Origin: Desulfovibrio sp. | GTDB lineage: Bacteria; Desulfobacterota; Desulfovibrionia; Desulfovibrionales; Desulfovibrionaceae | DNA length: 35,822 nucleotides | Assembly (NCBI GenBank): GCA_031287575.1 | Contig: JAITSV010000028.1 | Coordinates: 1 to 35,822, forward strand | Direction of reading: 5' to 3' | Shown here: in pieces, positions 4,255 through 25,148 of the stretch | Layout of the letters: every line of letters begins with the position of its first letter | How positions within the stretch are numbered: position 1 is the first letter of the stretch | The notes under the pieces: generated by a model | What the model saw: only the letters and a program-made list of their open reading frames with translations | Told to the model about the DNA's origin: nothing | The model's database searches: none | Position numbers and translations under genes: made by a program

Positions 4255-4275
4255 CCTCATTCTCCTTGGAGCGGA

Positions 4276-4710: not shown

Positions 4711-5723
4711 TTCAGGAATCCTTCAAGTCCCCTGAAGTTGACGCGGTTCCGCTGCTCCCGGATATCGTTCCGCAAATCGCCCAGGTTCCCGTCCTTCAGC
4801 TTCGCGCGAATCCCCTTGAACTCGTCACGGAAGGGCACCAGCAGGAATTCAGGGCACCGCAGGGTGCGCTTCCCGTTGACGGAGGCAAGGTCCTGGTGGA
4901 TCACGGCCAACAACGAGTTTTCCAGGTTGCGGCTGGCGGCTTCGCCTTCCAGCTCACGCGCCCAGGTCAACAGGCGGTCGAGGGCTGCAACGGCATCAAG
5001 ACCGTGGATGGTGGCCACCACCATCTGACGGCTGGACCCGAGGGATACGCGCAGCGCTTCTGTCGCCGCGTACTTGGAGCGGATTTCGCCGATGTGGATG
5101 ATGTTGGGAGAGCCGTAGCGATGAGCGCGCTCGATGTGCGCGGCCAACTCATGCTCACCGAGGATTTCCGTCTGGAAGCAATAGCCGTGCTGACCGTGGG
5201 GGCCGGTGAGGGGCATTTCCACCGGGTTCTCGAAGGTGACGCCGTGGCCTCCGTACAGCCGCAGCCGGGCCGCGATCAGCGCGGCTGCCGTCCAGGTCTT
5301 GCCGGAAGCCTGGGGGCCGGAGATGAGCACCAGCCCTTGCGACTGCTCTTCAGCGGACAACCAGGTCACCAGTTGTTCGGGCAGGCCGATGGAATCCAGG
5401 GAGGGAACGGATTCTGCGAGGCGGCGCAGGAACCAGGTGCGCCCGGAATCCACGTTGTCGAACACGGCCACCCGGTAGCGGACGTCGCAGTGCTCGAAAC
5501 GGATGGTGTCCGGATGTCGGCGCACACCAGAGGACGCTTCACAGGCGGACGGAACGCTGGAGAGAAACGAGCTTTCAAGTGCCCCCGGAAGCCCCTTCAG
5601 CTCATCGGCATCCTCGTCCCGAACCGGTACGAGCTGCTGGTCATGGCCGGGTACCCCCTTCAGGAGGCCCCGGCCGTTCGGCAGAAGGATGAGATCGGTG
5701 AAATCCTGCTCATGAAGCGCCAT
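4707..5723 (-). CDS. PilT/VirB11-superfamily ATPase of the pilus cluster
   Basis: A 338-residue secretion NTPase, distinct from PilQ. It has a Walker A GPQASGKT at about 136-143, an Asp-box-like FENPVEMP, a Walker B-like IIHIGEIRS, and the His-box ATIHGLDA. The pattern is close to PilT, BfpF and the IncI TraJ/DotB group. Start chosen at the ATG at 5723, which follows the pilS stop with a GAGG upstream; an upstream extension would run antisense-like through pilS and lacks conservation cues. R64 has a lytic transglycosylase (PilT) and prepilin peptidase (PilU) at this place; this is neither, despite the shared name PilT. It could power pilus retraction like BfpF, or serve transfer like IncI TraJ; sequence alone does not decide. 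Confidence 0.82.
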   Translation of the reverse strand: MALHEQDFTDLILLPNGRGLLKGVPGHDQQLVPVRDEDADELKGLPGALESSFLSSVPSACEASSGVRRHPDTIRFEHCDVRYRVAVFDNVDSGRTWFLRRLAESVPSLDSIGLPEQLVTWLSAEEQSQGLVLISGPQASGKTWTAAALIAARLRLYGGHGVTFENPVEMPLTGPHGQHGYCFQTEILGEHELAAHIERAHRYGSPNIIHIGEIRSKYAATEALRVSLGSSRQMVVATIHGLDAVAALDRLLTWARELEGEAASRNLENSLLAVIHQDLASVNGKRTLRCPEFLLVPFRDEFKGIRAKLKDGNLGDLRNDIREQRNRVNFRGLEGFLK

Positions 5724-5725
5724 GG

Positions 5726-6241
5726 CTACCTCGACGTGAACACAAGGGTGTTGCTGTCGTTGCAGCTTTGCGCGGCCGTCGTCGTGCCGGAGCTCTTGTC
5801 GATGGCGTTTCCGTTGACGGAAACCGCCGTCCACGAGTCCAGTTGCGAGGTGGCCAGCTTGGTGCATTCTTCCTGCGGGATTTCGGAGAGGGAAATGGTA
5901 AACGAGCTGCCGTCGCCGCTGGCCGCCAAGGCGACCTCGCCGCCCCAAGGTGTCACGACCTTGCTGCCCCGCAGAAACGTCTTGGGCACCAGCCCGGCCT
6001 TCATGGCCAGCGAGTTATCCAGCCCGTTGTAATCGCTGCCGCCGGAATAGAGCTGCTGGACTTGCATACGCAGGGACATAAGCCCCTGTTGAGTCGTGGC
6101 CAGATTCCCGCTGGAGAACAGCGAATAGACGAGAAGGGCACCGGCGGCGAACAGGATGAGATACACCAACATGGAACCGGACATTTCGACCATGACGAAA
6201 CCGGCTTCACCGCGCCTGGTGGTGGGGATCGTTCTGCGCAT
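5726..6241 (-). CDS. pilS: PilS, major type IVb prepilin
   Basis: A 171-residue prepilin, the expected building block of the thin pilus. The leader is 14 residues and ends EAG, followed by FVMVEMSG with Glu at mature position 5 and a 20-residue hydrophobic helix, matching prepilin peptidase substrates. The mature protein has about 157 residues and carries two cysteines in the C-terminal part (EECTK and AQSCND) that may form the D-region disulfide of type IV pilins. Start set at 6241, preceded by AGGAGG; longer in-frame starts read through pilR sequence. It overlaps nothing and lies 2 bases after pilR. The peptidase needed for maturation is not in the window, so it may be encoded further left or supplied by the host. 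Confidence 0.9.
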   Translation of the reverse strand: MRRTIPTTRRGEAGFVMVEMSGSMLVYLILFAAGALLVYSLFSSGNLATTQQGLMSLRMQVQQLYSGGSDYNGLDNSLAMKAGLVPKTFLRGSKVVTPWGGEVALAASGDGSSFTISLSEIPQEECTKLATSQLDSWTAVSVNGNAIDKSSGTTTAAQSCNDSNTLVFTSR

Positions 6242-6243
6242 GA

Positions 6244-7317
6244 CTAGAAACCTCCTGAAATCGAAAGTTGTTGTTGGAGAGAACCGATTGCCAGCGCCAC
6301 GCCGCAGAGAAGTCCGACGATGGCCAGCAGGCAGACAATATTGAGCACCTTGGCTTGGCGGGTGATGGTGGCCACACCGTTGCCTAGCCAATCGCGGGCC
6401 ATCGAATCCAACTGCTCATGGAAGCGTGGGAGCTTGGAGTACATGCACAAGTCCTCCACCAACTCTTCATCCGGGAAGCGCATCCCGGAATCCGCCAGCG
6501 CCTCACCGAGGCCCTTCCCAAGCGCCTGCTCGGCCTGCACGGCCTGCACGCGCTCACGCAGCCAGGGTGACAAGTTGGTGGTGCCCAACTGGGCTTCAAA
6601 AATCTGGTTGAGCTGCATGCCACCCCGCATGAGGGTGGCCACCGTGAACAGCCAGACCGACCCGACCACCAGCCGATAGAAGGACCAGGGCGGCAGCGAT
6701 TCGACCCGCAGCCGCGACGGCCCGGTCCAATGGGGGAGAGAGACCAGAGAGAGGAGCAGGAGGAGTCCGAACAGCACGCCCACGACGACACCCGCTGGCG
6801 ATGCGATGCTGGCCGACAGGGCGTGCATGGTGGCCGCTGCGCCGGTGAGGCGCGACGGGTCCACCAGCATGGAGATGTTGGGCATGACGTGGACGGCGAT
6901 CACCACCACGAGAACAACCAGCATACCCAAAAGCAGCGCCGGATACGCGAGGGCCTGCACGAGACTGCCGACGATTTCACGCTTGGCTTCGATCAAATCG
7001 ACGCAGAGGGGCAGTGTTTGCGCGAGCTGGCCGCTGTCCTGTCCACCGGCTATCAGCAGGACCTCTTCCGCCGGAGCAAACCCGCGCAGTGCCGAGCCGA
7101 GGGCCTGCCCCGTGTACAGGCGATCAAGGATCAGCCCGAAGGTTATGGCGAGAGGGGATCGGCGCGCCTTGGCACGGTCGCGCAACACTTCAAACGACCT
7201 GACCAGATCGAAGTTGTAGCGAACTTGTTCGGCCAGTTTACGCCACGTCCTGATGCGGGCTGCGTCACTGAAGGCACTGCGCGCAAGGAACAGGGAAAGG
7301 GCTTGGCGGTCGATCAT
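6244..7317 (-). CDS. pilR: PilR, inner-membrane platform protein of the type IVb pilus
   Basis: A 357-residue GspF/PilC-family polytopic protein that should anchor the assembly ATPase PilQ at the inner membrane. It shows two cytoplasmic four-helix-type domains separated by hydrophobic segments: one pair at about residues 125-200 (LVQALAYPALLLGMLVVLVV and the VGVLFGLLLLLSL stretch) and a final one near the C-terminus (IVCLLAIVGLLCGVALAIG). The GQALGSAL and ALGKGLGEAL motifs are the duplicated signatures of this family. The ATG overlaps the pilQ stop by four bases (ATGA). Length and position between pilQ and pilS match R64 pilR. Confidence 0.92.
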   Translation of the reverse strand: MIDRQALSLFLARSAFSDAARIRTWRKLAEQVRYNFDLVRSFEVLRDRAKARRSPLAITFGLILDRLYTGQALGSALRGFAPAEEVLLIAGGQDSGQLAQTLPLCVDLIEAKREIVGSLVQALAYPALLLGMLVVLVVVIAVHVMPNISMLVDPSRLTGAAATMHALSASIASPAGVVVGVLFGLLLLLSLVSLPHWTGPSRLRVESLPPWSFYRLVVGSVWLFTVATLMRGGMQLNQIFEAQLGTTNLSPWLRERVQAVQAEQALGKGLGEALADSGMRFPDEELVEDLCMYSKLPRFHEQLDSMARDWLGNGVATITRQAKVLNIVCLLAIVGLLCGVALAIGSLQQQLSISGGF

Positions 7318-8867
7318 GCCGCTGCCCCCTCATGAAGCATCTTGTCGAAATCCAACGGTACGCCCAGGCGCAGTTCCGCAAGGTGCGGATCGACCTGACC
7401 GGCACCTATCAGTTCGACGGCGTGCGCCACGTAGGAACGCCCTTTCAGATCATGACGCCAGTAGCTTTCCGCCTTGGCGAAATCATCACGGCGCAGATGG
7501 CTGAGCAGCGTCGGATCAGTCTGGATGACTTCGGCGGCGACACGCTGGCCAGTGATCCCGAGCTGGCGGCAATGCGCGCAGCCGTCACCCCGGACATGCA
7601 CCCCGTTCGGATCGTCGAGGACACGCAACAGGCGGTCCTCCACGGCGCGGGGGAGCGCATGTTTGCCCTTCTGCGCCTTCTGAAGGGGAATTTTGCACTC
7701 GGGGCAGAGCTGCGGGACAAGGCGCTGGTAGATCAGGCCCGCCAGCACGTTGTGGTCGCAGAGGTATTCCAGCGGGTTCACGTAGTCGGCGGCGTTGAGG
7801 AGGGACACCATCCGCCGGATGATCCCGAAGCCGTTGTTGGCATGCAGGGTGGCCCACACACCATGCCCGGTCAGCGCCGCGTCGATGGCCGCGCCAGCCG
7901 CTTCCGGGTAACGGATTTCGCCGATCATCAGCACGTCAGGGTCCGAGCGCATGCATCCGGCAATGGCGTTCATGTACGCGCGGCCACGCTCAGTCGGATC
8001 AACGGCGCTGTTGCCGTTGGTGTTGACCATGATTTGCTTTGTCCCCATGAGGGGATATTCCGGCGGGTCTTCCACGCTCATGTGATTCCGCTCCGGATTC
8101 TCGTGCGCCATCGATTCCATGACGTGCTTCAGGAGCGTCGATTTCCCGTGCCCGGTCGGGCCGGAAATGATGGTCAAGCCGGTGCGCTGCGTGAGGAATC
8201 GCAGACGCGAGGCGTCCGTGGCCGTGTAGCCGAGCGCCGTCACCCGCTCCTCCAACGTGCCCGTGGCCTTCGTGCTGTCGTACAGGAGACGAAGCGCCAT
8301 GAAGGTGCCGTTGCCGTCCTCAGCCTGCGCGCATTCGAGCGGTTCGGTATGCACGCGCACGGAGTGGACCTCGGCGGGCAGGAACTTGCGGTGTACGATC
8401 CGCCCATCCTGACGTTCTGTCTGCGAAAACGAGGAATCCGCCGCGTCGGTCATCGTCTCGTAGATCGCGCGGATCAGCTTCGAGCTGTCACCGGCGGCGA
8501 GCTGCCCATAGTCGCTCAACAGCCCGAGGCGGCGCATCTGAACCGCCCCATACGCTCCATAGTTCGTGATGTGGATATCCGAGGCCCCGCACTGGTAGGC
8601 ATCACGGAGCAGGCTCACGGCATACGCCTGCACATCGCTCTTTGCCCCGTCCGTGAATTGCGCCACGGCCCTAAACTTCGCGTCGAACTCGTCAGGCTTG
8701 TGCCAGGTGATTTCACCAACGCCGCGCCGCCGTGCGAGAGACACGAACGAGTCCAGGGACGGCTTGCCCTGCAACTCCTTCGAAACCCGGACCACACCGC
8801 CATCAATGACGATGCGGCCCCGAAGGTCCTGCGGCACCAATCCGATCAAGGACGTGTCCTGGAGCAT
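7314..8867 (-). CDS. pilQ: PilQ, type IVb pilus assembly ATPase
   Basis: A 517-residue GspE/PilB-like ATPase that should drive pilin polymerisation. Motifs: Walker A GPTGHGKST (about 236-244), Asp box HMSVEDPPEYP, Walker B MIGEIRYPEA, His box ATLHANNG, and a C-terminal zinc-binding pair CPEC...CAHC as in GspE/PilQ of R64. The ATG at 8867 follows AAGGAG and lies 4 bases after the pilP stop; an upstream in-frame start at 8906 would overlap pilP without a ribosome site. R64 PilQ has the same place in the order N-O-P-Q-R-S. This is the more canonical of the two ATPases in the cluster. Confidence 0.95.
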   Translation of the reverse strand: MLQDTSLIGLVPQDLRGRIVIDGGVVRVSKELQGKPSLDSFVSLARRRGVGEITWHKPDEFDAKFRAVAQFTDGAKSDVQAYAVSLLRDAYQCGASDIHITNYGAYGAVQMRRLGLLSDYGQLAAGDSSKLIRAIYETMTDAADSSFSQTERQDGRIVHRKFLPAEVHSVRVHTEPLECAQAEDGNGTFMALRLLYDSTKATGTLEERVTALGYTATDASRLRFLTQRTGLTIISGPTGHGKSTLLKHVMESMAHENPERNHMSVEDPPEYPLMGTKQIMVNTNGNSAVDPTERGRAYMNAIAGCMRSDPDVLMIGEIRYPEAAGAAIDAALTGHGVWATLHANNGFGIIRRMVSLLNAADYVNPLEYLCDHNVLAGLIYQRLVPQLCPECKIPLQKAQKGKHALPRAVEDRLLRVLDDPNGVHVRGDGCAHCRQLGITGQRVAAEVIQTDPTLLSHLRRDDFAKAESYWRHDLKGRSYVAHAVELIGAGQVDPHLAELRLGVPLDFDKMLHEGAAA

Positions 8868-8871
8868 CGCC

Positions 8872-9687
8872 CTACTCCTTGAACAGGATGGTTTGCGTGC
8901 GGCCACCCTGCCGAATGGTCACGCCATCGCGTGAAATGGCCTCGACCCGTCCGCCGTCGAAGACATCACCGACGCGCACCCGACGTGAGCCCTGGGCAGT
9001 CTGCACGGTGGCCACGACGCTCCCTGCAACGCCGCTGACGGCCACAACCCGGTTGCCCTGCTGCCGCGCGGGGATACCTTCACCACGCCCTGGTTGCGTG
9101 GCCGGAAGGGGCGGGAGCGCCAACGCGGCGGGAAGCTGCGGCGTCTGATAGCCGCGCAGCTTGGCCAACTGCTCTTCGATTTGAACCTGCACCTGGACTT
9201 CGGCGAGTTGCGCGCGTGCGGCCGTCAGGCGGGCCAGACTGCCACCCGTGGGAGCCATGGCCGGAGAAGCAGTCGGGGCGGGCACTGCCGTTGCGGACGG
9301 AGCGGACGGCACGGGCGTTTCCACCGGCGCACGGGAGGGGACGGGAACAGGCATGGGAACGGCGGTCGTCGCAGAGGCAGGCGCAGTGACGCTGGCCACC
9401 GGCTGAAGGACCGGTTCCGGGACTAGAGGAGGCTCCATTGCCGGGGACACCTCTGCCCGTTCAGCCACGGGGACAAGGGCCTCCGTGGCGTTGCGGGAAG
9501 GCGGAACGGCAGCCGTTACCTGCGGCACAGGCACGTCCAGCGGCTTCTTTTCCGCTGACGGCATCACAAGCGGCAGTGGTTCCCCTTGCTCAGGCCCCTG
9601 AACATTCTTGAAAATCACCACGGCAGCCACCACGACGACCAGCAGGCAAGCTACTGCCAATATGGCGAACGGCTTACTTATTTGCAT
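8872..9687 (-). CDS. pilP: PilP, type IVb pilus periplasmic alignment protein
   Basis: A 271-residue protein with one N-terminal membrane segment (about residues 6-25), a long proline/alanine/valine-rich linker, and a C-terminal globular domain with the pilus PilP pattern (RRVRVGDVFDGGRVEAISRDG). It should link the inner-membrane PilO/PilR platform to the secretin. Start set at the ATG at 9687 with AAAGGAG six bases upstream; longer frames lie inside pilO coding sequence. It overlaps the pilO 3' end by 14 bases, so translation is probably coupled. Position O-P-Q is as in R64. Confidence 0.88.
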   Translation of the reverse strand: MQISKPFAILAVACLLVVVVAAVVIFKNVQGPEQGEPLPLVMPSAEKKPLDVPVPQVTAAVPPSRNATEALVPVAERAEVSPAMEPPLVPEPVLQPVASVTAPASATTAVPMPVPVPSRAPVETPVPSAPSATAVPAPTASPAMAPTGGSLARLTAARAQLAEVQVQVQIEEQLAKLRGYQTPQLPAALALPPLPATQPGRGEGIPARQQGNRVVAVSGVAGSVVATVQTAQGSRRVRVGDVFDGGRVEAISRDGVTIRQGGRTQTILFKE

Positions 9688-10921
9688 GAACGACTCCTTT
9701 GATGGTCCACAGACCACCGCGATACTCGATGCTGGCCAGCACCAGCCCCGGCAGGGTTTGCAGTTCATGGGCAAGTGAAAGGTCCGCGAGGGTCACAGGG
9801 GGCACGTTGGCAAGTTCCCACTCGCCGCGTACCCACGGGGCCACCACTTCCACTCCCTCGACCTTCTTCTTCGCGGGTTGGTCCCATGTCAGGCGCAGCT
9901 TTGCCGCCACATCCTGCGTAAGCTGGTACAAGCGGCTAGTGATGCCGGGCACGTCCATCAGGGTGATGTCCCGGACGGAGCTGGTTACGCCCGGAAGAGC
10001 GACACGGGATGTCGCCGACCGGGTATCAACACGTGCTCCAGGGGGAGGGGTGGTGTACGACGCGCCCGGCTGGTGCGCCCAGGTCACGACCAGGGCATCA
10101 TCACCACATGTAGCCGCGTCGAGACGCCATCCGCTGGCCACCGTAGGAAGCTGAAGCATCGGCGTGATGCATTGGGCCGTTCGGGGCACTGGCAGCGCCT
10201 CCGCGAGCCACGTCCGGGCAAAATGCCGGGCAGCATTGGCCACCGCGTCACGGCGCGCCGTTTCGCGCGCCTTGGCCGCAGCCTGCACCGCCTGGCGCTG
10301 GCGCGCGGCTTCGCGCGCGTCGAGCCAGTGGTTGGCGCCAAGGGACAGGAGGGCGAGGCAGCCAAGAAAGGCCAAAGCCATGCGGCGTTGCCGGGCACGT
10401 CGGGCATCGTCGTTGAGAGGGCAGACCGGGTGGCCACGGTCGAAAAGACCACGCCGAGGCGCGAGATAGCCGGAGATTGCGGACAGGCTTTCCGACATGC
10501 CCGAAAACGTTTCCTCGCGGTCAAACGGCCCGCCGAGGTCTTTCAACGCGTTGGCATGGCTGACAGCTTCATCGCGCGTCAGGCAGAGCCGGTCACCTTC
10601 AGCCGAGATGAGGCCATTCCGGACGGCAAACACCCACCACAACCCATCATCGCCAACTTCTTCCTCAAGGCGGAAGACCCCGAGGTAAGACGCCGTAGGC
10701 GGGCGCATCGACGCGGCCAGAGAATGCGCCGCAGGCTTGTCCGGGCATTGCCCGAGGCCGAACTGGCGGGGAAGCAGCACCACGCAGTCATAGCCGCCGT
10801 CCGGAGTGGATTCCGCCGTGGCGCGCGCCGCGCGCAGGAGCTTGCGGGGACCAGGTTGTTCTGCAACCTGCCACCACAGCCCTGCCGCATAAGTGCGGCC
10901 ATTGAGATCGAGGAGCCGCAT
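9674..10921 (-). CDS. pilO: PilO, type IVb pilin accessory protein
   Basis: A 415-residue PilO-type accessory protein of IncI thin pili. The first about 180 residues form a cytoplasmic domain beginning with the family-typical phrase for a WW-containing start (AAGLWWQV), then a single membrane helix at about 185-202 (MALAFLGCLALLSLGANHW), a coiled-coil-like R/Q/A stretch, and a periplasmic C-terminal domain. It is unrelated in sequence to the short PilO of type IVa pili. The start ATG overlaps the pilN stop in TAATG, indicating coupling. It should form the inner-membrane assembly complex with PilP and PilR. Confidence 0.88.
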   Translation of the reverse strand: MRLLDLNGRTYAAGLWWQVAEQPGPRKLLRAARATAESTPDGGYDCVVLLPRQFGLGQCPDKPAAHSLAASMRPPTASYLGVFRLEEEVGDDGLWWVFAVRNGLISAEGDRLCLTRDEAVSHANALKDLGGPFDREETFSGMSESLSAISGYLAPRRGLFDRGHPVCPLNDDARRARQRRMALAFLGCLALLSLGANHWLDAREAARQRQAVQAAAKARETARRDAVANAARHFARTWLAEALPVPRTAQCITPMLQLPTVASGWRLDAATCGDDALVVTWAHQPGASYTTPPPGARVDTRSATSRVALPGVTSSVRDITLMDVPGITSRLYQLTQDVAAKLRLTWDQPAKKKVEGVEVVAPWVRGEWELANVPPVTLADLSLAHELQTLPGLVLASIEYRGGLWTIKGVVHANK

Positions 10922-12492
10922 TACACGTCCCCCGACTCGACTTCGATGGTCACGACGATGATCGAGCGGGCGTACTGGCGAGACCGCCCGGCCCCAAGCA
11001 GGCCGACATTGTTGCCGGAGGCATCCCGTTCCTGCTCAAACCCCGCGAGGACCAGCGTCTGCCCCATCTTCAAGGTCACCCGCTGGCTGAAGGAGCGCGA
11101 GCTGACTTTGGGCAGCTGCACCTTGATGTCGTCGGTGGAGAACTCGGCCATGTCGTCCAGCGACGACAGGTTGATGTTGTACTGGAGAATCACCCGGCGC
11201 CGCTCAAGGATGTGCGGGATCACCGTCATGGCGAAGCCGGTGGTCACCTCGCCGGGGGTTATCTCCGTCGTCTGGCCATAATCACTCTGGTAGGTGTTCA
11301 CCCCGGCCAGATAGGCTTCCTTCGTCGTGGCCTGCACCGGCACCGGCGTGTTGCTCATGACAACCCCGCCACCGGACGTAACCTGGCTGGCCTTGCCGAA
11401 CGACCGCAGCGCCTTCAGGAGCGCCGTGCTGCCCTTCAACTTGCCATCCACGATGGCCGCGCTGATGTCGCCACCGGATTGCAGGAACGTGAGCGGGCTC
11501 CCGCCGGAAGTCACCAGGACATCGGCATTCTCGAAGAGCACCTGGAGATTCAGCCCGGCATCGGTGTTGTCCGACAATTCGAGCGACCAGACTTTCACCG
11601 ACAAGGCGACCTGACGCGAGAGCTTGCCGTTCAGGTCCTCGATGTAGGCGCCGACCTGCTGGAGGACCACGGGGGTATCCTTCACCGTGATGGTGCCGGA
11701 CGATTGATGCGCCACGGCCGTTCCGCCCTTGCTCAAGAGCGCCTTCACCCCCGCTTCGACTTCGGACCACACGTCCAGCGACATTTCGCTGGTGTTCGTT
11801 TGGGCTGTTTGCGTCGTCGAGTCACCGGAGCTGACCGTCTGGCGCACACCGGTGGAGCCGCCGAGGGAGCCACCGGAAAGCGCCTCGCGCGACTTGTTGG
11901 TAATCTGGTTCGAGTACTTCAGCGTGCCCGGCGCCGACAGCAACGTGAACGTGCGAACCTGGAAGCGAGAGAAGGAAATCGACGCATCCGCAGCCGAATA
12001 GCTCCACCCCATTCCGAACTGATGCCCTATGCTGTCCAGCAGGCCCCGGAGAGGCCCGGAGTAATCCACTTCTGCGGTTTGAGCTGACGCGCCGAGCTCA
12101 CCGGCGCTGTCGAGCATGGCCGCGAGATCGGCGGGGATGTCGTTGGAACGTCCGCCCTGCCCCCCCTTCTTCACAGAGGTAGACGCGGAAATTTCCTTTT
12201 CGGCAGACACGGCCAACGGCACCAAGCCGCTGACGGCCGCGCAGAGCTGTTCCAGGGTGCCGCGCATCCGCAGCGTCACCTGGGCGCCGAATACAGCCGC
12301 CTGTTCCCCGTGCTTGGGGAGCGCCACCGGCACCGCTCCCAAGTAGGGTTCCTGGACGACATCCACGATCCGGGACCGGCTTTGGCTCGCCAGCTCCTTC
12401 CCTCTCGCCTCTATGGTTTCCTGCTTCGGGCCTTCTCGACCGGCGCACCCCGCGATCAGCAGGGCAACGAGCATGGCAATGATGATCCGCAT
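10921..12492 (-). CDS. pilN: PilN, lipoprotein secretin of the type IVb pilus
   Basis: A 523-residue outer-membrane secretin. The N-terminus is a lipoprotein signal with lipobox LIAGC (Cys near residue 16), as in R64 PilN and BfpB. The C-terminal half has secretin features: the LSVKVWSLELSDNTDAGLNLQ segment, repeated Gly-Ser strands, the TEITPGEVTTGFAMTVIPHI stretch, and the closing VTLKMGQTLVLAGF motif. The ATG has GGAGG upstream and begins 2 bases after the stop of the trbH-tcpQ fusion gene, whose C-terminal TcpQ domain probably assists this secretin. Serves as the pore for the PilS pilus. Confidence 0.92.
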   Translation of the reverse strand: MRIIIAMLVALLIAGCAGREGPKQETIEARGKELASQSRSRIVDVVQEPYLGAVPVALPKHGEQAAVFGAQVTLRMRGTLEQLCAAVSGLVPLAVSAEKEISASTSVKKGGQGGRSNDIPADLAAMLDSAGELGASAQTAEVDYSGPLRGLLDSIGHQFGMGWSYSAADASISFSRFQVRTFTLLSAPGTLKYSNQITNKSREALSGGSLGGSTGVRQTVSSGDSTTQTAQTNTSEMSLDVWSEVEAGVKALLSKGGTAVAHQSSGTITVKDTPVVLQQVGAYIEDLNGKLSRQVALSVKVWSLELSDNTDAGLNLQVLFENADVLVTSGGSPLTFLQSGGDISAAIVDGKLKGSTALLKALRSFGKASQVTSGGGVVMSNTPVPVQATTKEAYLAGVNTYQSDYGQTTEITPGEVTTGFAMTVIPHILERRRVILQYNINLSSLDDMAEFSTDDIKVQLPKVSSRSFSQRVTLKMGQTLVLAGFEQERDASGNNVGLLGAGRSRQYARSIIVVTIEVESGDV

Positions 12493-12493
12493 G

Positions 12494-13486
12494 CTAGTCC
12501 TCCGTTACTTCCACGACGTTGTTTTCTTGGTAGATCGTCACCCGCAGCGCATTGCCGTTCAGGTGCATGCGCGAAACCAGCCGCTTCACGGAACCGATGA
12601 AGCTGTCCCGGAAGACGGCCGTGGACTGCATCTGGAAATCATTCCCTGCCTTCCACACGAGCTGATACCCGGCGCGCGTCGTCCACCCTTCCAGCTGTGC
12701 TTTCAGGCTGCCCGGCGCGATTACCCATTGCTCGCTCTCCACTTTTTGGAGTCCGACAGCCGTAGGCTCCGGGCTGGGCGCCGTAACCGTCGGGGCGGGC
12801 ATCGCGGGTGCAGAGGCGGATTCCACCGGCAATGGCGCCTCCGGAAGGGGCACGGAAGAGACTGGCGCCGGGGTCGGAATGGGAGCGGGACTCGGGACCG
12901 GTGCGGGGGGGGCCACGGCTACGACCGGAGCCGGAGGCACCGCCGGAGCGGCTGCGGCAACTGACGACGCCAGAGCGTCAGCCGCAGCCACCGGGGACGG
13001 CTCATAAGCCGGGACCGGCTGCGGGGCCGGGGCAGCTACCGGCGCGACGTTGGGCAGGCCCGTTTGGGTGACGGAACCTGCCACCACCAGGCCGTTGCGG
13101 ATGGAGAATATCTGGTTGAATGCGCCGCCATCGGACATGCGCACGCGCAGGTAGCATGTCGGGTTGACCTCGCCGGGCATCATGTCGAGTTGGTAGCCAA
13201 GACCTATCCCGGTCGTGGCGTCCGCCGAGACGGCGAATCCATGCCGTCGCAGGCTCGCATCGAGCGCCTGGCCAAAGCCCCCTTCATCGGAGATCAAGCG
13301 CAGCGTGGTTCGGCCAGGCGGGTAGATGGCCGCGAGCCGCCCGGCGGCTTGGCTCGCGATTTCAGCCGTGGCATGCGGGTAGGAATCCGTCACTCCGTCG
13401 TAGGCATCCAAGCCGTCGGCACTACGCCGCGCAGCGCAGCCGGGAAGGAGCAGGACCAGGAGCAACAGCAAGGGAACGACTTTCAC
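12494..13486 (-). CDS. TrbH-TcpQ fusion lipoprotein linking transfer channel and type IVb pilus
   Basis: A 330-residue lipoprotein (GTG start, AAGGAGAG upstream; lipobox LLPGC with Cys17). Residues of about 35-145 resemble the conjugation lipoprotein TrbH: an AAIYPP motif, then FGQALDASLRRHGFAV and a Y-L-RV-M strand pattern with NGLVVAGSVTQTG. Next comes a proline/alanine/valine-rich linker (about 150-245). The last about 80 residues match the TcpQ pilus domain found at the end of R64 PilL (QWVIAPGSLKAQLEGW, YQLVWKAGNDF, NVVEV). It lies exactly where trbH (after trbG) and pilL (before pilN) would both be expected. Inference: one protein replaces both, tethering the VirB9/VirB10-type core to the PilN secretin. 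The TrbH assignment is from memory of the family and is less certain than TcpQ. Confidence 0.8.
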   Translation of the reverse strand: MKVVPLLLLLVLLLPGCAARRSADGLDAYDGVTDSYPHATAEIASQAAGRLAAIYPPGRTTLRLISDEGGFGQALDASLRRHGFAVSADATTGIGLGYQLDMMPGEVNPTCYLRVRMSDGGAFNQIFSIRNGLVVAGSVTQTGLPNVAPVAAPAPQPVPAYEPSPVAAADALASSVAAAAPAVPPAPVVAVAPPAPVPSPAPIPTPAPVSSVPLPEAPLPVESASAPAMPAPTVTAPSPEPTAVGLQKVESEQWVIAPGSLKAQLEGWTTRAGYQLVWKAGNDFQMQSTAVFRDSFIGSVKRLVSRMHLNGNALRVTIYQENNVVEVTED

Positions 13487-13488
13487 GG

Positions 13489-14439
13489 TTAGCTCTCCTT
13501 CTTCTTGATGATGATCCGCTGTTGCTGCTTGCCGACCCCGGCCAGCAACACGGCCTCGCCGAACACCTCATCCACGACGAGGGTTGTGTCTTTGACGCGG
13601 TAGTTGGTCAGGATTTCGGCCTTGTCGCGCCGAACGAGGAGCACGGGCATTTCGGATTGCCGGACGGAGGGAGGGAGACGAATGAACGTCTGGCGGCCAT
13701 CGCTGTAGACCTGTTCGGGCCTCCACGCGGCCTTGCCGTCCAGTTCATAGGCAAAGTCGAGTTGGGACAGGGGCACCGCAGTACCCGAGATCACGGCAGT
13801 CTCATGCACATCCTGGCGCTGCTGCTGCGCGAGCTGGGCGCGAAGGGCCTTTTCCTCTTCCTCAGGGTAGATGAACCCCACGTAGGGCGTATGCCCGGAG
13901 GGCTGCGACACGAGCTTGATGTGGTATGTGCGCCGGTCAGTGGTGATGACGGCCATCGTCTCAAGCCCGGCATCGAGCGGCTTGACGATCAGGTGGGTTG
14001 CCTCCGGATATCCGGAGCGGGCCACGACGACCTTCCACCTGGCCGTGTCGCCGAGCACCACGTCATTGACCATTTCGCCGGGCTGAAGCTCGATGTCGGA
14101 AACCATGAACGGCGCGCAGATCACCGAGGGCTGCGTCACCCCGTAGGTGAAAGTTACCCGTCCGGCGTCGGTCATTACCGGGAGGATGTTCCGTTCCCGG
14201 TATTCATCCGAGAGCGACAGCGCCCGCTTCTCCTTGACGGAAAGGGGCACCTTCTTGTTTGAAATGTAGTTGGCGGGCGGTGGCAGCATTTCCAGCCCCG
14301 AAAGATCATCGGGCGTACCGCCCTGGCGCGACAGCACCGGAACCGGTGGAGCACTGTCCGCCGCCAAAGCGTTCGGGACGCCAAGGAGAAGGAGGGGGAG
14401 GAGGGTCGCGCACAGGGCGCGGCAGGAAATAGACGACAT
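13489..14439 (-). CDS. trbG: TrbG, VirB9-like outer core protein
   Basis: A 316-residue periplasmic/outer-membrane core protein of the transfer channel. It has a signal peptide (about residues 1-27, ending in LAADS), an N-terminal VirB9 domain with YGVTQPSVICAPFMVSDIELQPGE, and a C-terminal domain with DFAYELDGKAAWRPEQVYSDG and FIRLPPSV, both typical of VirB9/TrbG. The ATG at 14439 is preferred over an in-frame ATG at 14472 because the signal peptide begins there. It starts 10 bases after the trbF stop and is followed 2 bases later by the fusion lipoprotein gene. Confidence 0.94.
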   Translation of the reverse strand: MSSISCRALCATLLPLLLLGVPNALAADSAPPVPVLSRQGGTPDDLSGLEMLPPPANYISNKKVPLSVKEKRALSLSDEYRERNILPVMTDAGRVTFTYGVTQPSVICAPFMVSDIELQPGEMVNDVVLGDTARWKVVVARSGYPEATHLIVKPLDAGLETMAVITTDRRTYHIKLVSQPSGHTPYVGFIYPEEEEKALRAQLAQQQRQDVHETAVISGTAVPLSQLDFAYELDGKAAWRPEQVYSDGRQTFIRLPPSVRQSEMPVLLVRRDKAEILTNYRVKDTTLVVDEVFGEAVLLAGVGKQQQRIIIKKKES

Positions 14440-14449
14440 GACGTGGCCC

Positions 14450-15160
14450 CTAGAGTTGCTTGCTGAAAGCAATTTCGGTGATCTTGATCCCGCCGGGGTT
14501 CAAGGCGATTTGGGCGTCCGTGGCGGGCTGCACGAGTTGGATGGTCATGGTCGCGGCGTAATGAGCCACACTTTGCGTGGCCCCCTCGTGTGTGCGGGTG
14601 GTTTCCAGCCATTCAACGCGCCATGAGGTGGGCGATACCGGCAGCGGAAGGCCACGCACTTCGACGCTCACCAGCGCCTCTTTCGCGCGCGTGTAAGGGT
14701 CGTTCGTGGCGAACCACTCACGGATCACCGTCGCACCGCTGCCCGAGAGGTACGCAGCGAGCTTGCGCAGCATGCTCGACTGCAACTGGATATCCGCCGT
14801 GACCGTGCGCCAGTTCGTGATGATGTTGGCCAGCTCAGCCTGGATCACCCGTTGAGGGATGGACGTGGCCGAGTCCGCCCGCTGCACGGCCCGAATCCGC
14901 CCGGCATCGTCCACGTTGACCACGTAGGGGACGAGCTTGTTTTGCAAGCCCTGGGCGACGTTCCCGGCCAGCGAGATACCGAGCAGCAGGAAGGCGAAGA
15001 GTGCTGCTGTGCGCCACTGCGCGCAGCGCACGATGTCGTCACCGTTGCGCTCAAGCCATTCCTGCCGGGCGTCCAGGAACGGGTTTTCCTCCAGGGGCTT
15101 CGGTCGCGCGGCCACAGTGGCCTCATCGCCTTTCGCCTGCCGTTTTCCGAAGAGATTCAT
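14450..15160 (-). CDS. trbF: TrbF, VirB8-like inner-membrane assembly protein
   Basis: A 236-residue bitopic protein: cytoplasmic N-terminus, membrane helix at about 48-66 (RTAALFAFLLLGISLAGNV), and a periplasmic VirB8 fold with the TrbF-type motifs IPQRVIQAELANIITNWRTVT, NDPYTRAKEALVSVEVRG and SWRVEWLETTRT. Length is usual. GAGGGGGA precedes the ATG. It stands 21 bases after the trbL stop. Helps nucleate the inner-membrane complex. Confidence 0.94.
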   Translation of the reverse strand: MNLFGKRQAKGDEATVAARPKPLEENPFLDARQEWLERNGDDIVRCAQWRTAALFAFLLLGISLAGNVAQGLQNKLVPYVVNVDDAGRIRAVQRADSATSIPQRVIQAELANIITNWRTVTADIQLQSSMLRKLAAYLSGSGATVIREWFATNDPYTRAKEALVSVEVRGLPLPVSPTSWRVEWLETTRTHEGATQSVAHYAATMTIQLVQPATDAQIALNPGGIKITEIAFSKQL

Positions 15161-15181: not shown

Positions 15182-16339
15182 TTATTCGCCGCCTTCCTTC
15201 TCCAGGAGGGCGTCTTGAGTGCGAGCGGATAGGTCGGAACGCACGCGGTCGCCATAGGAGCGCTCGTCCATGGGCCGAGAGCCCGCAGCCTTTACCATGG
15301 ACCGGGCCACATTCTTGGCTGCCTCACGCGCCAAGGCGGAACCGGTATGCCCGTCGGCCTTGGCTGCCTTGACCGCGCCGCTAGCGATGCCTCCAGTGGT
15401 TTCCGCGCCGCTGGCCGTCGCTTTGGCGGCGGCATAGCCCGCAGCGATTGCGGCCATTGCGTTTTGCGCTAGGGCGTTGCCAGTTGAGACGTTGGAGCCT
15501 TGCAGGACACCACCGATGATGTCAGGTATTGTGTTGATCAAAACGAGCATAACTATTGCGACACCAATCATGATTCCTGCACCTTCAAGCGTAGCAGGAA
15601 CACTCTTCATATCTGCCACGAATGAAAAACATAGCCCAACAAGCAATTGTAGTACGAATAACTTCATAGCTACAGAAAATGCATATCTCATAAAATTGAT
15701 AGCGTAGTCCTTGAATAATCCACACCCACCAAATCCAAGCAAAATAATTCCTGCATTCATGACAATATAAAATTCACAAAGAATCTGAATTATGCGTGCC
15801 GCCATAAAAGCAAAGCATGCCAAAAGTATGAATCCGGCAAAGAGCATTCCCCACGACGGAGGGTCTAAAAACTTCGCTTGTTCCCATACGTTATTGGCAA
15901 GCTCAACTCCGCTTTGAAGAAAGTTCGACGGGTCTATGATTGTGGGGGAATAACCAAGAGAACCACCGATCGACTGAAATCCCTTGATTATCTTCAACGA
16001 CCATGCTTTGTAATTTTTGAGGATTGCGAGCATTACACCAGCGAAAAAAAGCAATTTTAACGCCTCTACAACGACCTCTTCAAAAGGTGGTCTTTTGAGT
16101 ATGAGACGGATAGCCAGGAGGCAAAAATCCAAAATGACCATATACCTGAACAAAGACAAAGCCGCTCCAGTAAGAACACTTGCCCATGCGTTTGTTTTTG
16201 TATAAAATTTCTCCACTATTGCTTGCAGTATATTGAACTGGTCAGCTGTCGGGCCATCTGCCGCGAAGGCGTTGGGAACACTAATGAAGACAAGCATAAG
16301 GACGATCACTATGCAAAGATTCTTGGCGGTGATTCTCAT
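15182..16339 (-). CDS. trbL: TrbL, VirB6-like polytopic channel protein
   Basis: A 385-residue membrane protein with a signal-like N-terminus (ending NAFAAD), about six hydrophobic segments up to residue about 275, and a soluble Ala/Gly-rich C-terminal tail. The topology, length and position (after trbJ, before trbF) identify TrbL/VirB6. Start set at the ATG at 16339 with GAGGATAG upstream, because the signal peptide starts there. The coding sequence is mosaic: from about 15530 to the start it is markedly AT-rich (one 60-base line near 15661 is about one third GC), while the C-terminal tail and neighbours are GC-rich. The first 29 bases overlap, on the other strand, the start of the lipoprotein gene at 16311. 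Confidence 0.92.
   Translation of the reverse strand: MRITAKNLCIVIVLMLVFISVPNAFAADGPTADQFNILQAIVEKFYTKTNAWASVLTGAALSLFRYMVILDFCLLAIRLILKRPPFEEVVVEALKLLFFAGVMLAILKNYKAWSLKIIKGFQSIGGSLGYSPTIIDPSNFLQSGVELANNVWEQAKFLDPPSWGMLFAGFILLACFAFMAARIIQILCEFYIVMNAGIILLGFGGCGLFKDYAINFMRYAFSVAMKLFVLQLLVGLCFSFVADMKSVPATLEGAGIMIGVAIVMLVLINTIPDIIGGVLQGSNVSTGNALAQNAMAAIAAGYAAAKATASGAETTGGIASGAVKAAKADGHTGSALAREAAKNVARSMVKAAGSRPMDERSYGDRVRSDLSARTQDALLEKEGGE
16201..16206 (+). promoter_or_regulatory. Possible -10 box for the rightward lipoprotein gene
   Basis: TATAAA followed by AT lies about 105 bases upstream of the lipoprotein ATG, inside antisense trbL sequence. A weak TTGCCC at 16180-16185 is 15 bases upstream, shorter than ideal spacing. 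A separate promoter is needed because the gene opposes the operon. This is a weak match in AT-rich DNA where such boxes arise by chance. Confidence 0.25.
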
Positions 16340-16463
16340 TCTATCCTCACTACTGGTTTCATGTGTTCCCAACGAGGAAACGGAACGGAAGGAACATGCT
16401 AAGGAATTGATGAAGCAATCGGGCAATGTCGGCAAAAAATCTGGTCCTGCCCCTTTCCCTTAA
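16311..16463 (+). CDS. Small lipoprotein at the trbK position, tail homologous to TrbJ; possible entry-exclusion protein
   Basis: A 50-residue lipoprotein encoded against the operon. ATG at 16311 has AAGGA eight bases upstream. The signal peptide has lipobox LVSC (Cys18), giving a 33-residue mature protein. Its C-terminus SGNVGKKSGPAPFP closely matches the TrbJ C-terminus SGNLGKKTGAAPF, and similarity extends back to an EH pair: 13 of 23 aligned residues are identical by eye, while the two DNA copies differ mostly at third codon positions. That pattern supports real coding homology. It occupies the trbK (entry-exclusion) position between trbJ and trbL, but in the opposite orientation. Exclusion is inference from size, lipobox and place; a VirB7-like role is an alternative. 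Its stop overlaps the trbJ stop. Confidence 0.7.
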   Translation: MQRFLAVILILSSLLVSCVPNEETERKEHAKELMKQSGNVGKKSGPAPFP

Positions 16464-16489
16464 AACGGCGCGGCCCCTGTCTTTTTGCC
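16431..16489. repeat. Imperfect inverted repeat formed by the two homologous gene tails
   Basis: The 3' ends of the lipoprotein gene and trbJ meet tail to tail. Because the tails are homologous, they form inverted arms: GGCAAAAA at 16431-16438 and TTTTTGCC at 16482-16489 are exact, with weaker pairing outside and between. It could act as a convergent-transcript hairpin or as a recombination joint; neither is shown. Confidence 0.6.
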
Positions 16490-17242
16490 CAAGTTTCCTG
16501 AGCGCTGAAGCAAGGCGCGGGAGTGCTCTTCCTGCGCCTGTTTCTCCTTCTGCTCCATCGCCGCAGCCTGCGCCTGCTGCTGTGCCTGCGTGGCCAGTAG
16601 TGCGCGCAGGCTGCGGCTTTCCTGCAAGGCCATCGCAGAGAGCTGATTCCCGGCCTGAATGGCCTCCATACGCCCTTCCGGCGTATTCAAAAGTTCCTGC
16701 ACGCGGGCGTCGTATTCGTCGGCGTCTTGCAGATCACCGAGTTGCTTGGACGACATCTGGTAGGTGGCCTTCGCCGCGCGGTCGTTTTCAGCCGCCCAAG
16801 TATCCCACTGCTGCTGGTATTCCCCCTGCCCCATCCCCCCGATAGCGGCCTGGTCCGGGTACATCTCTTGGTACTTTCGCGCCGCCGCGTCGGCTTCCGC
16901 CTTGCGCGTGTCCAGCTCGCGGATGAGGTTCCCCATTCGCCGGAACTCGCCCTGCATGTCGCTCAACACGCTCGGGTCGAGATTCTTCGTGTTCTTCATC
17001 ATGTTCTCGTATTGCTCGACGTTCTGCTGCACCATGCGAAGCTGATGCGCCGTTTGCGCAACGTCATTGTCGAGCTGACTCATCATCGTGGACAACTGAG
17101 AGACGTTGGTCACGCGGTCCAACGCTTGGACAAACTTCGTTGAGCAGTTCGAGCAGTAGACGGTCTTGCCTTCGGAAGGCGCACAAAACACCGTCGCCAT
17201 AGCCGCCAGGGCGACAACAAGAATTCTCGAAGACTTGATCAT
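16460..17242 (-). CDS. trbJ: TrbJ, VirB5-like protein of the transfer apparatus
   Basis: A 260-residue exported protein of the P-type TrbJ family. It has a signal peptide (about residues 1-25), a CxxC (YCSNC) just after it, then long helical heptad-like sequence rich in Gln/Asn/Glu (VSQLSTMMSQLDNDVAQTA and onward) as in VirB5/TrbJ, and a Gln/Ala/Glu-rich end. The ATG follows AAGGAG and lies 11 bases after the trbE stop. The last 13 residues recur in the small lipoprotein encoded convergently next door. VirB5 proteins sit at the pilus tip or base and touch recipients; in RP4, trbJ and trbK have both been linked to mating-pair formation and entry exclusion (established knowledge). Confidence 0.9.
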   Translation of the reverse strand: MIKSSRILVVALAAMATVFCAPSEGKTVYCSNCSTKFVQALDRVTNVSQLSTMMSQLDNDVAQTAHQLRMVQQNVEQYENMMKNTKNLDPSVLSDMQGEFRRMGNLIRELDTRKAEADAAARKYQEMYPDQAAIGGMGQGEYQQQWDTWAAENDRAAKATYQMSSKQLGDLQDADEYDARVQELLNTPEGRMEAIQAGNQLSAMALQESRSLRALLATQAQQQAQAAAMEQKEKQAQEEHSRALLQRSGNLGKKTGAAPF

Positions 17243-17253
17243 TTGGTGCTCCT

Positions 17254-19668
17254 TTATCTTCCAGAGTGTGTAATGCTTCGTTCTTCAAGCCATGCTTCCG
17301 GCCAGCCGTCTCCGTGGCTTGCTTCCAGCTCACGGATACGGGCCAGTTGCTCCTTGTCGCTCACGCCGACAAAGGCCAGGGCACGAGGCCCAAGAGCCAA
17401 CGACATCAAGCGTCGCCCCTTCGGAGCGGTCACGTAGTATTCCCGCTTCGGAGTGGCGGTCGCCACGATTTCGAGTTGGCGGTCATTGAGCCCAAAGCGC
17501 CGGTAGATGGCTGACGAAATATCCTGAAGCGCCTGGCCGTTTGGTAGGTAGATTTTGGTGGGGCAGGATTCTACAAGCACATCAAGAATACCGGAACGGT
17601 CTGCATCTGAGAGTGATTGCGTGGCGATGACCAAAGTGCAGTTTGCTTTGCGCAACACTTTGGCCCACTCCCGTATCTTCTCTCGAAATACGGGATGGCC
17701 GAGCATCACCCACGCTTCATCCAGCATTAGAAGAGCCGGTTGCCCGGTCAGGCCCCGCTCGATACGCCGGAAGATATAAAGCAGTACAGGCAAGAGGTTC
17801 TTTTCACCCATGGCCATTAGCTCTTCCAACTCGAACGTCGTGAATGAGGCCAGCGATAGTGCGTCAGTCTTCGCATCAAGCAGCATCCCCATGCTGCCAC
17901 CGTGGGTGTAGTGTTTCATGGAGGTCTTCACCTCGTCGTTCTGAACGACGTGGAAGAAGTCCGTCAGCGAACGAAGGTGGGGAGGACTTTGGCGCAGGAA
18001 CGTCATCGCTTCGTGGATTGCATTACGGTGCACGGGAAGCACGGTTAGCCCCTGAAGCACGCACAAGGATGAAACCCATTCTTCGGCCCAAGCCTGGTCT
18101 GAATCCGACTCCAAGTAGGACAAGGGAGCAAAGGCCGGACTCTCTTCGCTGCCAATGTCATAGTGGGCACCGCCGACCGACTTGGTCAGCGGATACATGG
18201 ACCGCCCCTTGTCGAAGGAGAATACCGAGCTGCCCTTGTATCTACGGAATTGTGCAGCAATCATGGCCAGCAAGGTGGACTTGCCTGACCCCGGAGGGCC
18301 GAAAATCAGGGTGTGGCCGAGATCGCCGTCGTGTAGGTTCAGACGGAACGGCGTCACGCCATCCGATGCGCAATGCATGAGAGGGGGAGATTCCGGGGGA
18401 AAGAACGGGCACGGGCAAAATTCCTCGCCGGGCCAGACCGAGGCCAATGGCAGGAAGTCGGCAAGATTCAGGGAGGTAATCAGCGGCCGACGGACATTGG
18501 CCCACCAGTTGCCGGGGTGGCTAGACAACCAGGCTTCCACGGCGTTGATCGTCTCGATGCGGCACCCCCACCGGCCGATGCTCGCCACAAGCTCCCGCAC
18601 GTGGCGACAACGTATTTCCAGTTCGCTCGGATCATCATGGAGCAGAATGATGGAGGCCGTGTAGTAGCCGAGGGTCGATGCGCCGCCCTCGACATCCGCG
18701 TAGGCTTCCTCTGCCTCTTCAGCCATGCGCGCCGCATCGCGGTTCACACGAGGGTTGGCTTTCGGAAACAGGATGTCGAAGAACTTGAACATCTTCTGCC
18801 GCCACGTCTTGCGGTAACGATCGACCTCCTTCAAAGCCTCGTGCTGGGACAGGCAGAGAAAACGCGTCGAGTAACGCAGTGGGAACGGCAGCAAGTCCAA
18901 CGCATCAAACATGGCGGGCCAACTCTCGGACGGAACGCCGTCCAGCGAGAGCACGGCAATGTGCTGGTCGCCAATGCGAGGGGCCAACCCGCCGACAAGA
19001 TCTTGTCCGGCGATCAGACCGTCCAGGTACATGGGTTCCTTGGGCAGGCGCACGCCCCGGTGTTCGCCGGTGATGCACTCTTCCAGGTAGCTGAGAAGGT
19101 CGGAGGATATGCCGCCACCCGGAATGGGGGAATTACCCAGGCGCTCCATGCGGAGCAGCGGTCTCAACTGATCCTCCAGGGCTTCTATGGTGTGCCGGAA
19201 GACCTTCAAAGCCGATTCAAGCTCGTTGAGCCGCGCCGTCTGAAGAGCCGCTGCCCGCAAGAGCGTGGCCTGATGCGTGGGTGCTTTGAAGTAAACGGAC
19301 AGGAAGGCCCTGGTGTTCAAGAAGTGCCCGCCTTCGAATCTGGCGCGTCGTTCCTCCTCAATCATGGCCGTGACCGGATCGGGGAAATGACTTGCCGAAC
19401 GCGGAGGATACGCACGGGCGGCGCGGCGGATGGCATCAACATGCAACCCCCACCCCGAGCCAAGCGGCGCAAGGGCGCGGCTCACATGGGAGCTGACGCG
19501 CGCTAGCTCATCTTCTGTGCTGGATGCCGTGTCGGCGCCGGTAATCATCCATGAGGCCAGCAGCGTGCCATCCTTGCAGAGAAGCGTGTCCGGAGCCAGC
19601 AACGCGGCATAGGGAAGCAAGTCAGGCAGTCCCTTTGCCTTGGAGCGATAGTCGCGAAGCGGTAGCAT
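17254..19668 (-). CDS. trbE: TrbE, VirB4-like ATPase
   Basis: An 804-residue inner-membrane-associated ATPase that powers channel and pilus assembly. The N-terminal CagE/VirB4 domain begins with DYRSKAKGLPDLLPYAALLAPDTLLCKDG, typical of TrbE. The C-terminal motor has Walker A FGPPGSGKST (about 456) and Walker B LLMLDEAWVMLG (about 647), with an ATQSLSD motif after it. Length is usual. The ATG overlaps the stop of the 66-aa ORF in ATGA. It follows the trbB-C-D genes, with ssb and a small ORF inserted before it. Confidence 0.96.
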   Translation of the reverse strand: MLPLRDYRSKAKGLPDLLPYAALLAPDTLLCKDGTLLASWMITGADTASSTEDELARVSSHVSRALAPLGSGWGLHVDAIRRAARAYPPRSASHFPDPVTAMIEEERRARFEGGHFLNTRAFLSVYFKAPTHQATLLRAAALQTARLNELESALKVFRHTIEALEDQLRPLLRMERLGNSPIPGGGISSDLLSYLEECITGEHRGVRLPKEPMYLDGLIAGQDLVGGLAPRIGDQHIAVLSLDGVPSESWPAMFDALDLLPFPLRYSTRFLCLSQHEALKEVDRYRKTWRQKMFKFFDILFPKANPRVNRDAARMAEEAEEAYADVEGGASTLGYYTASIILLHDDPSELEIRCRHVRELVASIGRWGCRIETINAVEAWLSSHPGNWWANVRRPLITSLNLADFLPLASVWPGEEFCPCPFFPPESPPLMHCASDGVTPFRLNLHDGDLGHTLIFGPPGSGKSTLLAMIAAQFRRYKGSSVFSFDKGRSMYPLTKSVGGAHYDIGSEESPAFAPLSYLESDSDQAWAEEWVSSLCVLQGLTVLPVHRNAIHEAMTFLRQSPPHLRSLTDFFHVVQNDEVKTSMKHYTHGGSMGMLLDAKTDALSLASFTTFELEELMAMGEKNLLPVLLYIFRRIERGLTGQPALLMLDEAWVMLGHPVFREKIREWAKVLRKANCTLVIATQSLSDADRSGILDVLVESCPTKIYLPNGQALQDISSAIYRRFGLNDRQLEIVATATPKREYYVTAPKGRRLMSLALGPRALAFVGVSDKEQLARIRELEASHGDGWPEAWLEERSITHSGR

Positions 19669-19882: not shown

Positions 19883-20332
19883 CTAAAACGGTACGTCATC
19901 CATGCCGGTGGCCTCGGAGGGGAACGCGGGGCCAGGATCATCATCCGAAGCTTGGTCGGATTGTCTGGCCTGCTGGTTGCGGGCCGGAGCGGTGCCGTTG
20001 GCGTTGTCCCGCCGGTCAAGGAACCGGACCCGTTGCGCCTTTATTTCCGTAGAGTAGCGGTCCTGGCCGTTCTGATCCTGCCACTTGCGGGTTTGCAGGC
20101 TGCCTTCAACGAAGACGAGGCTGCCTTTGCTGAGGTAGTTGGCGCAGTTTTCCGCCATGCGCTGAAAAACCACCACGGTGTGCCACTCCACGCGGTCCAC
20201 CTTGTTGCCGTCGCGGTCGGTATAGGATTCGTCCGTTGCGATCCGCATGCTGGCTATGGGTGCGCCATTCTGCGCGTAACGCAGTTCCGGGTCTTTCCCG
20301 AGTCGTCCGATCACCATGACTTTGTTCAACAT
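19883..20332 (-). CDS. ssb: Single-stranded DNA-binding protein embedded in the trb operon
   Basis: A 149-residue SSB: OB-fold with MLNKVMVIGRLGKDPELRY, VEWHTVVVFQRMAENCANYLSKGSLVFVEGSLQTRKWQDQNG, a Gln/Asp-rich linker, and the acidic tip MDDVPF that recruits partner proteins. GAGGAG precedes the ATG; it begins 9 bases after trbD. It likely coats the incoming or displaced single strand in transfer. Conjugative elements often carry ssb, but usually in the leading region or near replication genes, so its place between trbD and trbE is unusual. Confidence 0.96.
   Translation of the reverse strand: MLNKVMVIGRLGKDPELRYAQNGAPIASMRIATDESYTDRDGNKVDRVEWHTVVVFQRMAENCANYLSKGSLVFVEGSLQTRKWQDQNGQDRYSTEIKAQRVRFLDRRDNANGTAPARNQQARQSDQASDDDPGPAFPSEATGMDDVPF

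Positions 20333-25071: not shown

Positions 25072-25148
<77 letters not shown>

Follow-up and report, generated by a model that had tools for sequence, protein, structure and literature searches.

The window analysed here is the whole stretch of 35,822 nucleotides from Desulfovibrio sp. (contig JAITSV010000028.1). It holds a trb-type conjugation operon, all on the - strand, and opposite to it on the + strand a small lipoprotein gene, whose product ends in a copy of the C-terminal tail of the neighbouring TrbJ. The open reading frame (ORF) of the lipoprotein spans the 120-bp gap between trbJ and trbL, which is the trbK slot, and it is antisense to the operon and convergent with trbJ. At the 3' end its stop codon overlaps that of trbJ, and at the 5' end its first codons run over the trbL start, which is most likely at 16339. 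The N-terminus of the lipoprotein is hydrophobic and contains an LVSC lipobox, read directly from the sequence, and the protein is probably lipidated. TrbJ of the window exceeds the cut-off of TIGR02780, the model for the VirB5/TrbJ family. An earlier note on this DNA had placed a lipoprotein at the trbK site, reading against the operon, and our analysis agrees with this placing. Of the range it had given (16311-16505), the ORF itself takes up 16311-16463 (+), and the remainder takes in the TrbJ tail codons on the - strand.

The alignment of the lipoprotein with the TrbJ tail contains 14 identical residues among 28 aligned, with a score of 85. This score was not reached by any of 20000 shuffled TrbJ tails (best shuffle 51). 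When 485 ORF tails of the window were scored, the next best after TrbJ and the lipoprotein was 33. The own TrbJ tail was also the best of 30 TrbJ tails for the window lipoprotein. The tail similarity that the earlier note had counted as 13 of 23 residues, over a slightly shorter stretch, is therefore real. The features of the locus are collected in the table.

Table. Features of the trbJ-trbL region and neighbouring trb genes, in positions of the window
Feature	Position	Strand	Evidence or remark
Antisense trbK-slot lipoprotein gene, 50 aa	16311-16463	+	ATG to TAA, read directly; proposed entry-exclusion protein
Ribosome-binding-like AAGGA, 8 nt before the lipoprotein ATG	16298-16302	+	read directly
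Lipobox LVSC of the lipoprotein	16353-16364	+	read directly
Lipoprotein codons for the shared tail SGNVGKKSGPAPFP	16419-16460	+	alignment
TrbJ codons for the matching tail SGNLGKKTGAAPF	16463-16501	-	alignment
trbJ (VirB5-like)	16460-17242	-	TIGR02780 108.9 bits, cut-off 100.55
trbL (VirB6-like), suspected tail partner	15182-16339	-	TIGR02783 187.4 bits; PF04610
trbF (VirB8-like)	14450-15160	-	PF04335
trbE (VirB4-like)	17254-19668	-	NF010404 938.6 bits
trbG	13489-14472	-	part of trb-type conjugation operon
Promoter-like site upstream of the lipoprotein gene, inside trbL	16180-16208	+	consensus match 9/12; weak evidence

Of 288 genomes from the same family, 54 had a TrbJ match, and the related-locus search of genome contigs yielded only 3 loci. 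In total 82 loci were read, some of which are copies of one element. L125 (no TrbJ hit), L056 (TrbJ off the end) and L002, L037 and L052 (trbL not found) were left out. The trbJ-trbL gap of the remaining 77 loci was 90-600 bp in 51, smaller in 24 and larger in 2 (L040, L132). Slot ORFs were selected by position and N-terminal hydrophobicity only, as antisense ORFs ending between -12 and +30 of the trbJ stop. This position rule is blind to the tails, yet it was chosen after an initial view of the slot genes of relatives; an earlier rule that used the signal only had picked chance ORFs in L061 and L073. An antisense slot ORF was found in 46 of the 51 loci with a 90-600 bp gap. Such ORFs were what the earlier note had proposed to look for in relatives, and their frames are open, free of the stop codons that it had named as a reason to drop its proposal.

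After pairs with TrbJ bodies at least 80% alike were removed, 30 antisense pairs remained. For 18 of the 30 slot proteins the own TrbJ tail was the unique best of the 30 tails (1 expected). The mean score was 45.6 for own pairs versus 19.3 for cross pairs, and no permutation out of 20000 was as high. Our results showed that the tail of the slot protein covaries with that of the resident TrbJ, as the earlier note had expected. This covariation and the shuffles of the window tail rule out a chance ORF.

Some slot proteins are long (107-143 aa). They are secreted or lipidated, with a G-x-W motif near the start of the mature part (L011, L018, L023, L024, L027, L028, L041, L069, L127). The TrbJ tail is present in some of them and absent in others, as if the body had been exchanged. 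The L031 copy, which has the same protein as L018, was predicted with low confidence to be beta-rich with a C-terminal helix. A fold search with a long slot protein model (predicted local distance difference test, pLDDT, 62) gave no useful match.

The slot gene also occurs in the operon direction in plasmids. We examined 27 plasmid records; a 28th (L094) ends before trbJ. Six records were not counted for want of a usable annotated slot gene. Among these, L078 and L092 have an unannotated ORF with a matching tail, as judged by eye, L083 has trbB in the slot, L086 and L139 have almost no gap, and L088 shows weak resemblance only. The 21 counted records gave 22 pairs; the permutation test excluded one of these, that of pALTS32 trbK1, a short second copy which lacks the tail. 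The own tail was the unique best in 14 of the 21 pairs, with a mean score of 39.7 versus 17.3 for cross pairs (0/20000 permutations). By annotation, the unique best was the own tail for 8 of 12 TrbK/EexN proteins and 6 of 9 hypothetical proteins. These TrbK/EexN proteins are annotated members of families that have members with proven exclusion. Thus sense genes annotated as TrbK or EexN likewise end in the tail of their own VirB5/TrbJ, which goes beyond what the earlier note had predicted.

The tails of single plasmids illustrate this pairing. In pTiC58, TrbJ ends in DIRGGQTMEPRW and TrbK in DVRGGQEMKPRW, and this TrbK weakly matches the last 25 positions of the TrbJ profile PRK13842 (243-267/267, E 0.0028, 16.9 bits). 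The tails are YTKSPAQSW (TrbJ) and FTKSPEKKW (TrbK) in IncP pMCR_BE2-5, FIKQQKEAEPLTFD (VirB5) and FIQSQKDAPVPTFD (EexN) in IncX4, and MTKGTYNMPTPQTF (TrbJ) and MTKGQYRAAEPQTF (TrbK) in pALTS32. The neisserial TrbK, whose mature part is described as having very little homology to known TrbK (PMC2848598), also has a tail that resembles its own TrbJ tail by eye. pALTS32 (L137) carries two trbK genes, the first of which ends before the tail, as if inactivated and replaced.

The 30 antisense and 21 sense pairs make up the 51 pairs on which the family-wide claim rests. The best-matching segment of TrbJ was its C-terminal 30 aa in 39 of them, and that of the slot protein its C-terminal 25 aa in 41.

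Two coding tails that face each other across a shared stop, as in the window, could also be alike as DNA. They might form an inverted repeat (terminator or hairpin), or be a duplicate kept alike by gene conversion. Codons at identical residues were counted in the 17 antisense pairs with a tail score of at least 36, with Met and Trp excluded. The same codon was used at 73 of 216 residues, below the 96.7 expected from independent codon choice, and codon positions 1 and 2 agreed at 0.70 versus 0.36 at position 3. The window pair shares the codon at 4 of its 14 identical residues, with 7.1 expected, and the third-position drift described by the earlier note holds. The 12 sense pairs share the codon at 70 of 116 residues, slightly above the 60.9 expected, which favours the DNA explanation and is a point against our interpretation. 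RNA across the trbJ/lipoprotein junction of the window folds no better than shuffles (z +0.88). Furthermore, the pairing occurs in four gene arrangements: antisense downstream (the window), sense downstream (IncP, Ti, IncN), sense upstream of trbJ (L058), and about 4 kb from virB5 (IncX4 eexN). Codon choice in the antisense set, folding and the variety of arrangements together rule out a hairpin or terminator and gene conversion, and we give a DNA feature next to no chance. Because of the same three observations, the tails of these proteins speak for selection at the protein level. The same-codon deficit of the antisense tails perhaps reflects avoidance of inverted repeats; the sense pairs have no such deficit.

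Two plasmids, L091 and L134, have near-identical trb genes on either side of this slot. Their TrbI proteins are 99.4% identical, and the next gene after trbL is 100% identical. TrbJ is near-identical as far as its tail; over the last two blocks identity drops first to 72% and then to 30%. The TrbK proteins are 35% identical, and each resembles its own TrbJ tail. TrbL is diverged over the first ~325 columns of the alignment (12-76% identity per 25 columns) and 92-100% identical over the rest. Since the flanks are near-identical and the middle is diverged, the exchanged block runs from the TrbJ tail through TrbK into TrbL, of which it covers the larger, N-terminal part, in our view the membrane part. 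According to a review, TrbJ, TrbK and TrbL are the only mating-pair components on two mobile islands, GISul2 and the IncP island (PMC5704250). In the R388 structure, one VirB5 is described between two VirB6 subunits (PMC9259494). Over the 198 residues compared, TrwJ of pMAK3 matches the solved R388 protein.

The window TrbJ was represented by a shallow AlphaFold2 model built on 4 sequences, in which residues 251-260, its last 10, come after a long helix and have a pLDDT below 50. The C-terminal end is thus predicted to be disordered, as expected of a free tail. A Foldseek search with this model gave no match at E 0.001 or better, TraC (1r8i) and TrwJ (7o3v) were not among the matches listed, and TrbJ had no sequence match to 1r8i or 7o3v. 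A short C-terminal tail that is predicted disordered, with an aromatic final residue in 28 of 30 TrbJ proteins of the set, might instead be a processing or degradation tag, read on both proteins by a host protease or the secretion machinery. However, if the host read the tag, elements in related hosts would be expected to share it, yet the tails differ between elements and track the resident partner, and between L091 and L134 they change together although the flanking trb genes are near-identical. We therefore regard a tag as very unlikely.

The window protein shares several properties with known exclusion proteins. Like TrbK of IncP (TIGR04359) and Ti (TIGR04361), it is a small envelope-anchored protein encoded between trbJ and trbL. 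Its tail resembles the own TrbJ tail, as do those of the TrbK proteins in the records examined, with the exceptions of pVb1636 (not best) and pALTS32 trbK1 (without tail). Unlike the window gene, trbK of IncP and Ti runs in the operon direction. EexN (NF033894; IncN, IncW, IncX, Campylobacter) is also a small lipoprotein, usually at the virB5-virB6 junction, and it ends much like the resident VirB5, whose tail was the unique best match in 3 of 6 records. In contrast to the window protein, EexN has a conserved central part; the window protein had no match to the EexN model (NCBIfam, E up to 1), which has 65 positions and ends short of the tail. In the Gram-positive ICEBs1 system, the recipient lipoprotein YddJ has the VirB6-like donor protein ConG as its target. 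TraS of F, as described in PMC12624023, is a recipient protein that likewise meets a VirB6-related donor protein, TraG, which resembles our proposal; no tail copy is described there, unlike in the window.

An 8-residue C-terminal truncation of RP4 TrbK reportedly abolished exclusion (Haase, 1996). For TrbK of pKPC_UVA01, loss of the C-terminal ~38 or more residues is reported to abolish exclusion, and the same paper states that a C-terminal need was also shown for IncP TrbK (PMC8923210). According to this 2022 paper, no donor partner of TrbK was known in IncP plasmids. RP4 trbJ alone in the recipient, like trbK, is reported to protect against killing by the RP4 machine, and R388 and R6K do not protect (PMC11045733). 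A tail in common with TrbK would account for the protection of recipients by TrbJ, which is itself part of the machine. In a limited search of open-licence literature (including PMC13381706 and PMC7690428), which left most older conjugation papers outside, no mention of the shared tail was found.

Taking these data together, we consider it likely that the window protein is an entry-exclusion protein of the trbK type that acts as a tethered decoy. Its gene would be an exclusion gene turned round against the operon. In a cell already harbouring the element, the lipoprotein would be held in the envelope by its lipid, and at the end of a short linker it would present a mimic of the flexible C-terminal tail of the TrbJ that this element encodes. 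On docking of a donor that harbours this element too, the decoy would occupy the holder of the TrbJ tail in the donor machine, most likely the membrane part of TrbL/VirB6, and would block DNA transfer. The tail mimicry that the earlier note had proposed is well supported by the counterpart ORFs, their open frames and the covariation. For the block to entry, the TrbK truncations and the protection by RP4 trbJ are indirect evidence; this block by the mimic, and the binding of the tail in the donor machine, probably by TrbL/VirB6, are the parts that we infer.

Several observations weigh against this interpretation. No candidate was selected by the rule in 5 of the 51 gapped loci (L016, L017, L019, L043, L046). 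Twelve of the 30 antisense slot proteins do not prefer their own tail (L011, L018, L023, L027, L028, L041, L057, L064, L127, L129, L130, L133). Long forms make up 7 of these 12, and L018, L023 and L064 end like their own TrbJ (PDPF, NDDGF and PDPF versus DDPF), though other TrbJ tails outscore it. In the sense set, the own tail ranked 4 of 21 in IncW pMAK3, 5 in R46, 3 in pVb1636, 2 in pR18, 17 in Leclercia and 21 in Cupriavidus, and C. fetus gave a tie; pMAK3 nevertheless ends GMPTIQ versus GMPKIR despite its rank. The R46 pair is weak when taken alone (465 of 5000 shuffles). No experimentally proven exclusion protein with a strong match is in the set: RP4, with the best-studied TrbK, is outside it, and R46, a pKM101 relative, is weak. 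The window lipoprotein had no match to the TrbK models TIGR04359 and TIGR04361 (NCBIfam, E up to 1), and had no such match in Pfam. As for the partner, the members of the exchanged block adjoin one another, so that the block alone is no proof that TrbL binds the tail; its borders fit such binding.

Loci with a short gap add to these points. In 23 of the 24 loci with a trbJ-trbL gap below 90 bp, no tail-bearing lipoprotein gene was seen in the DNA retrieved. The exception is L058, in which trbJ directly adjoins trbL: it encodes, in sense at 4072-4254 (-) and just upstream of trbJ, a lipoprotein of 60 aa that has the matching tail. A score of 35 in L013 came from an ORF inside trbJ and was taken for chance. 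Regions of 8.5-19.9 kb round 17 short-gap loci and L002 added only the L058 element again; two other wider regions have ORFs scoring 33 and 35 (own controls 27), which are unlike the tail-bearing lipoproteins.

The published experiments also contain points against a decoy. TrbK of pKPC_UVA01 is described as needed in the donor too and as inhibiting both IncP and IncN (PMC8923210), neither of which a plain decoy predicts. The truncations in that paper (~38 residues or more) take away more than the tail. An action in the donor would suit another explanation, namely that the lipoprotein serves the transfer machine of its own cell as a structural or assembly component, e.g. a pilus-assembly helper or anchor, and that the tail is a docking signal shared with TrbJ on the same partner rather than a means of exclusion. 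A tail maintained at the protein level agrees with this, and covariation would likewise result if both proteins docked at one site in the same periplasm. However, trbK is reported to be dispensable for transfer of pKPC_UVA01 (PMC8923210) and for killing by the RP4 type IV secretion system (PMC11045733), the gene is absent near trbJ in many trb elements, and the feature is carried by annotated TrbK/EexN proteins, families that are named for exclusion. An assembly part is thus unlikely in our view, though it has a better chance than a tag.

Some other features of the window were noted. Beside the trb genes, at 3094-13486, there is a type IV pilus-like set (secretin-like, ATPase, GspF-like, prepilin-like), recognized by eye. 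An ORF at 19883-20332, between the trbC-like and trbE genes, resembles a single-stranded DNA-binding protein, also by eye. A tRNA-Met at 25072-25148 (-) lies just past the mobile genes and is a possible integration site.

The same tail pairing is present in many other conjugative elements, and it suggests how resident cells may refuse a second copy of the element. There is about an even chance that exclusion in the MPF_T (VirB/Trb) systems often follows one principle: a tethered decoy of the resident VirB5 tail, with the membrane part of the donor VirB6/TrbL as its partner, and the three parts travelling as one exchangeable specificity block, whatever the gene direction. If our interpretation is true, the tail shared by the exclusion protein and VirB5 would provide a direct hypothesis for the partner and specificity of TrbK, and would account for TrbJ being reported as a second exclusion factor. 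Exclusion genes could then be found by their tails where model searches fail, as with the inverted genes, and the shared tail suggests a short peptide by which plasmid transfer might be reduced.
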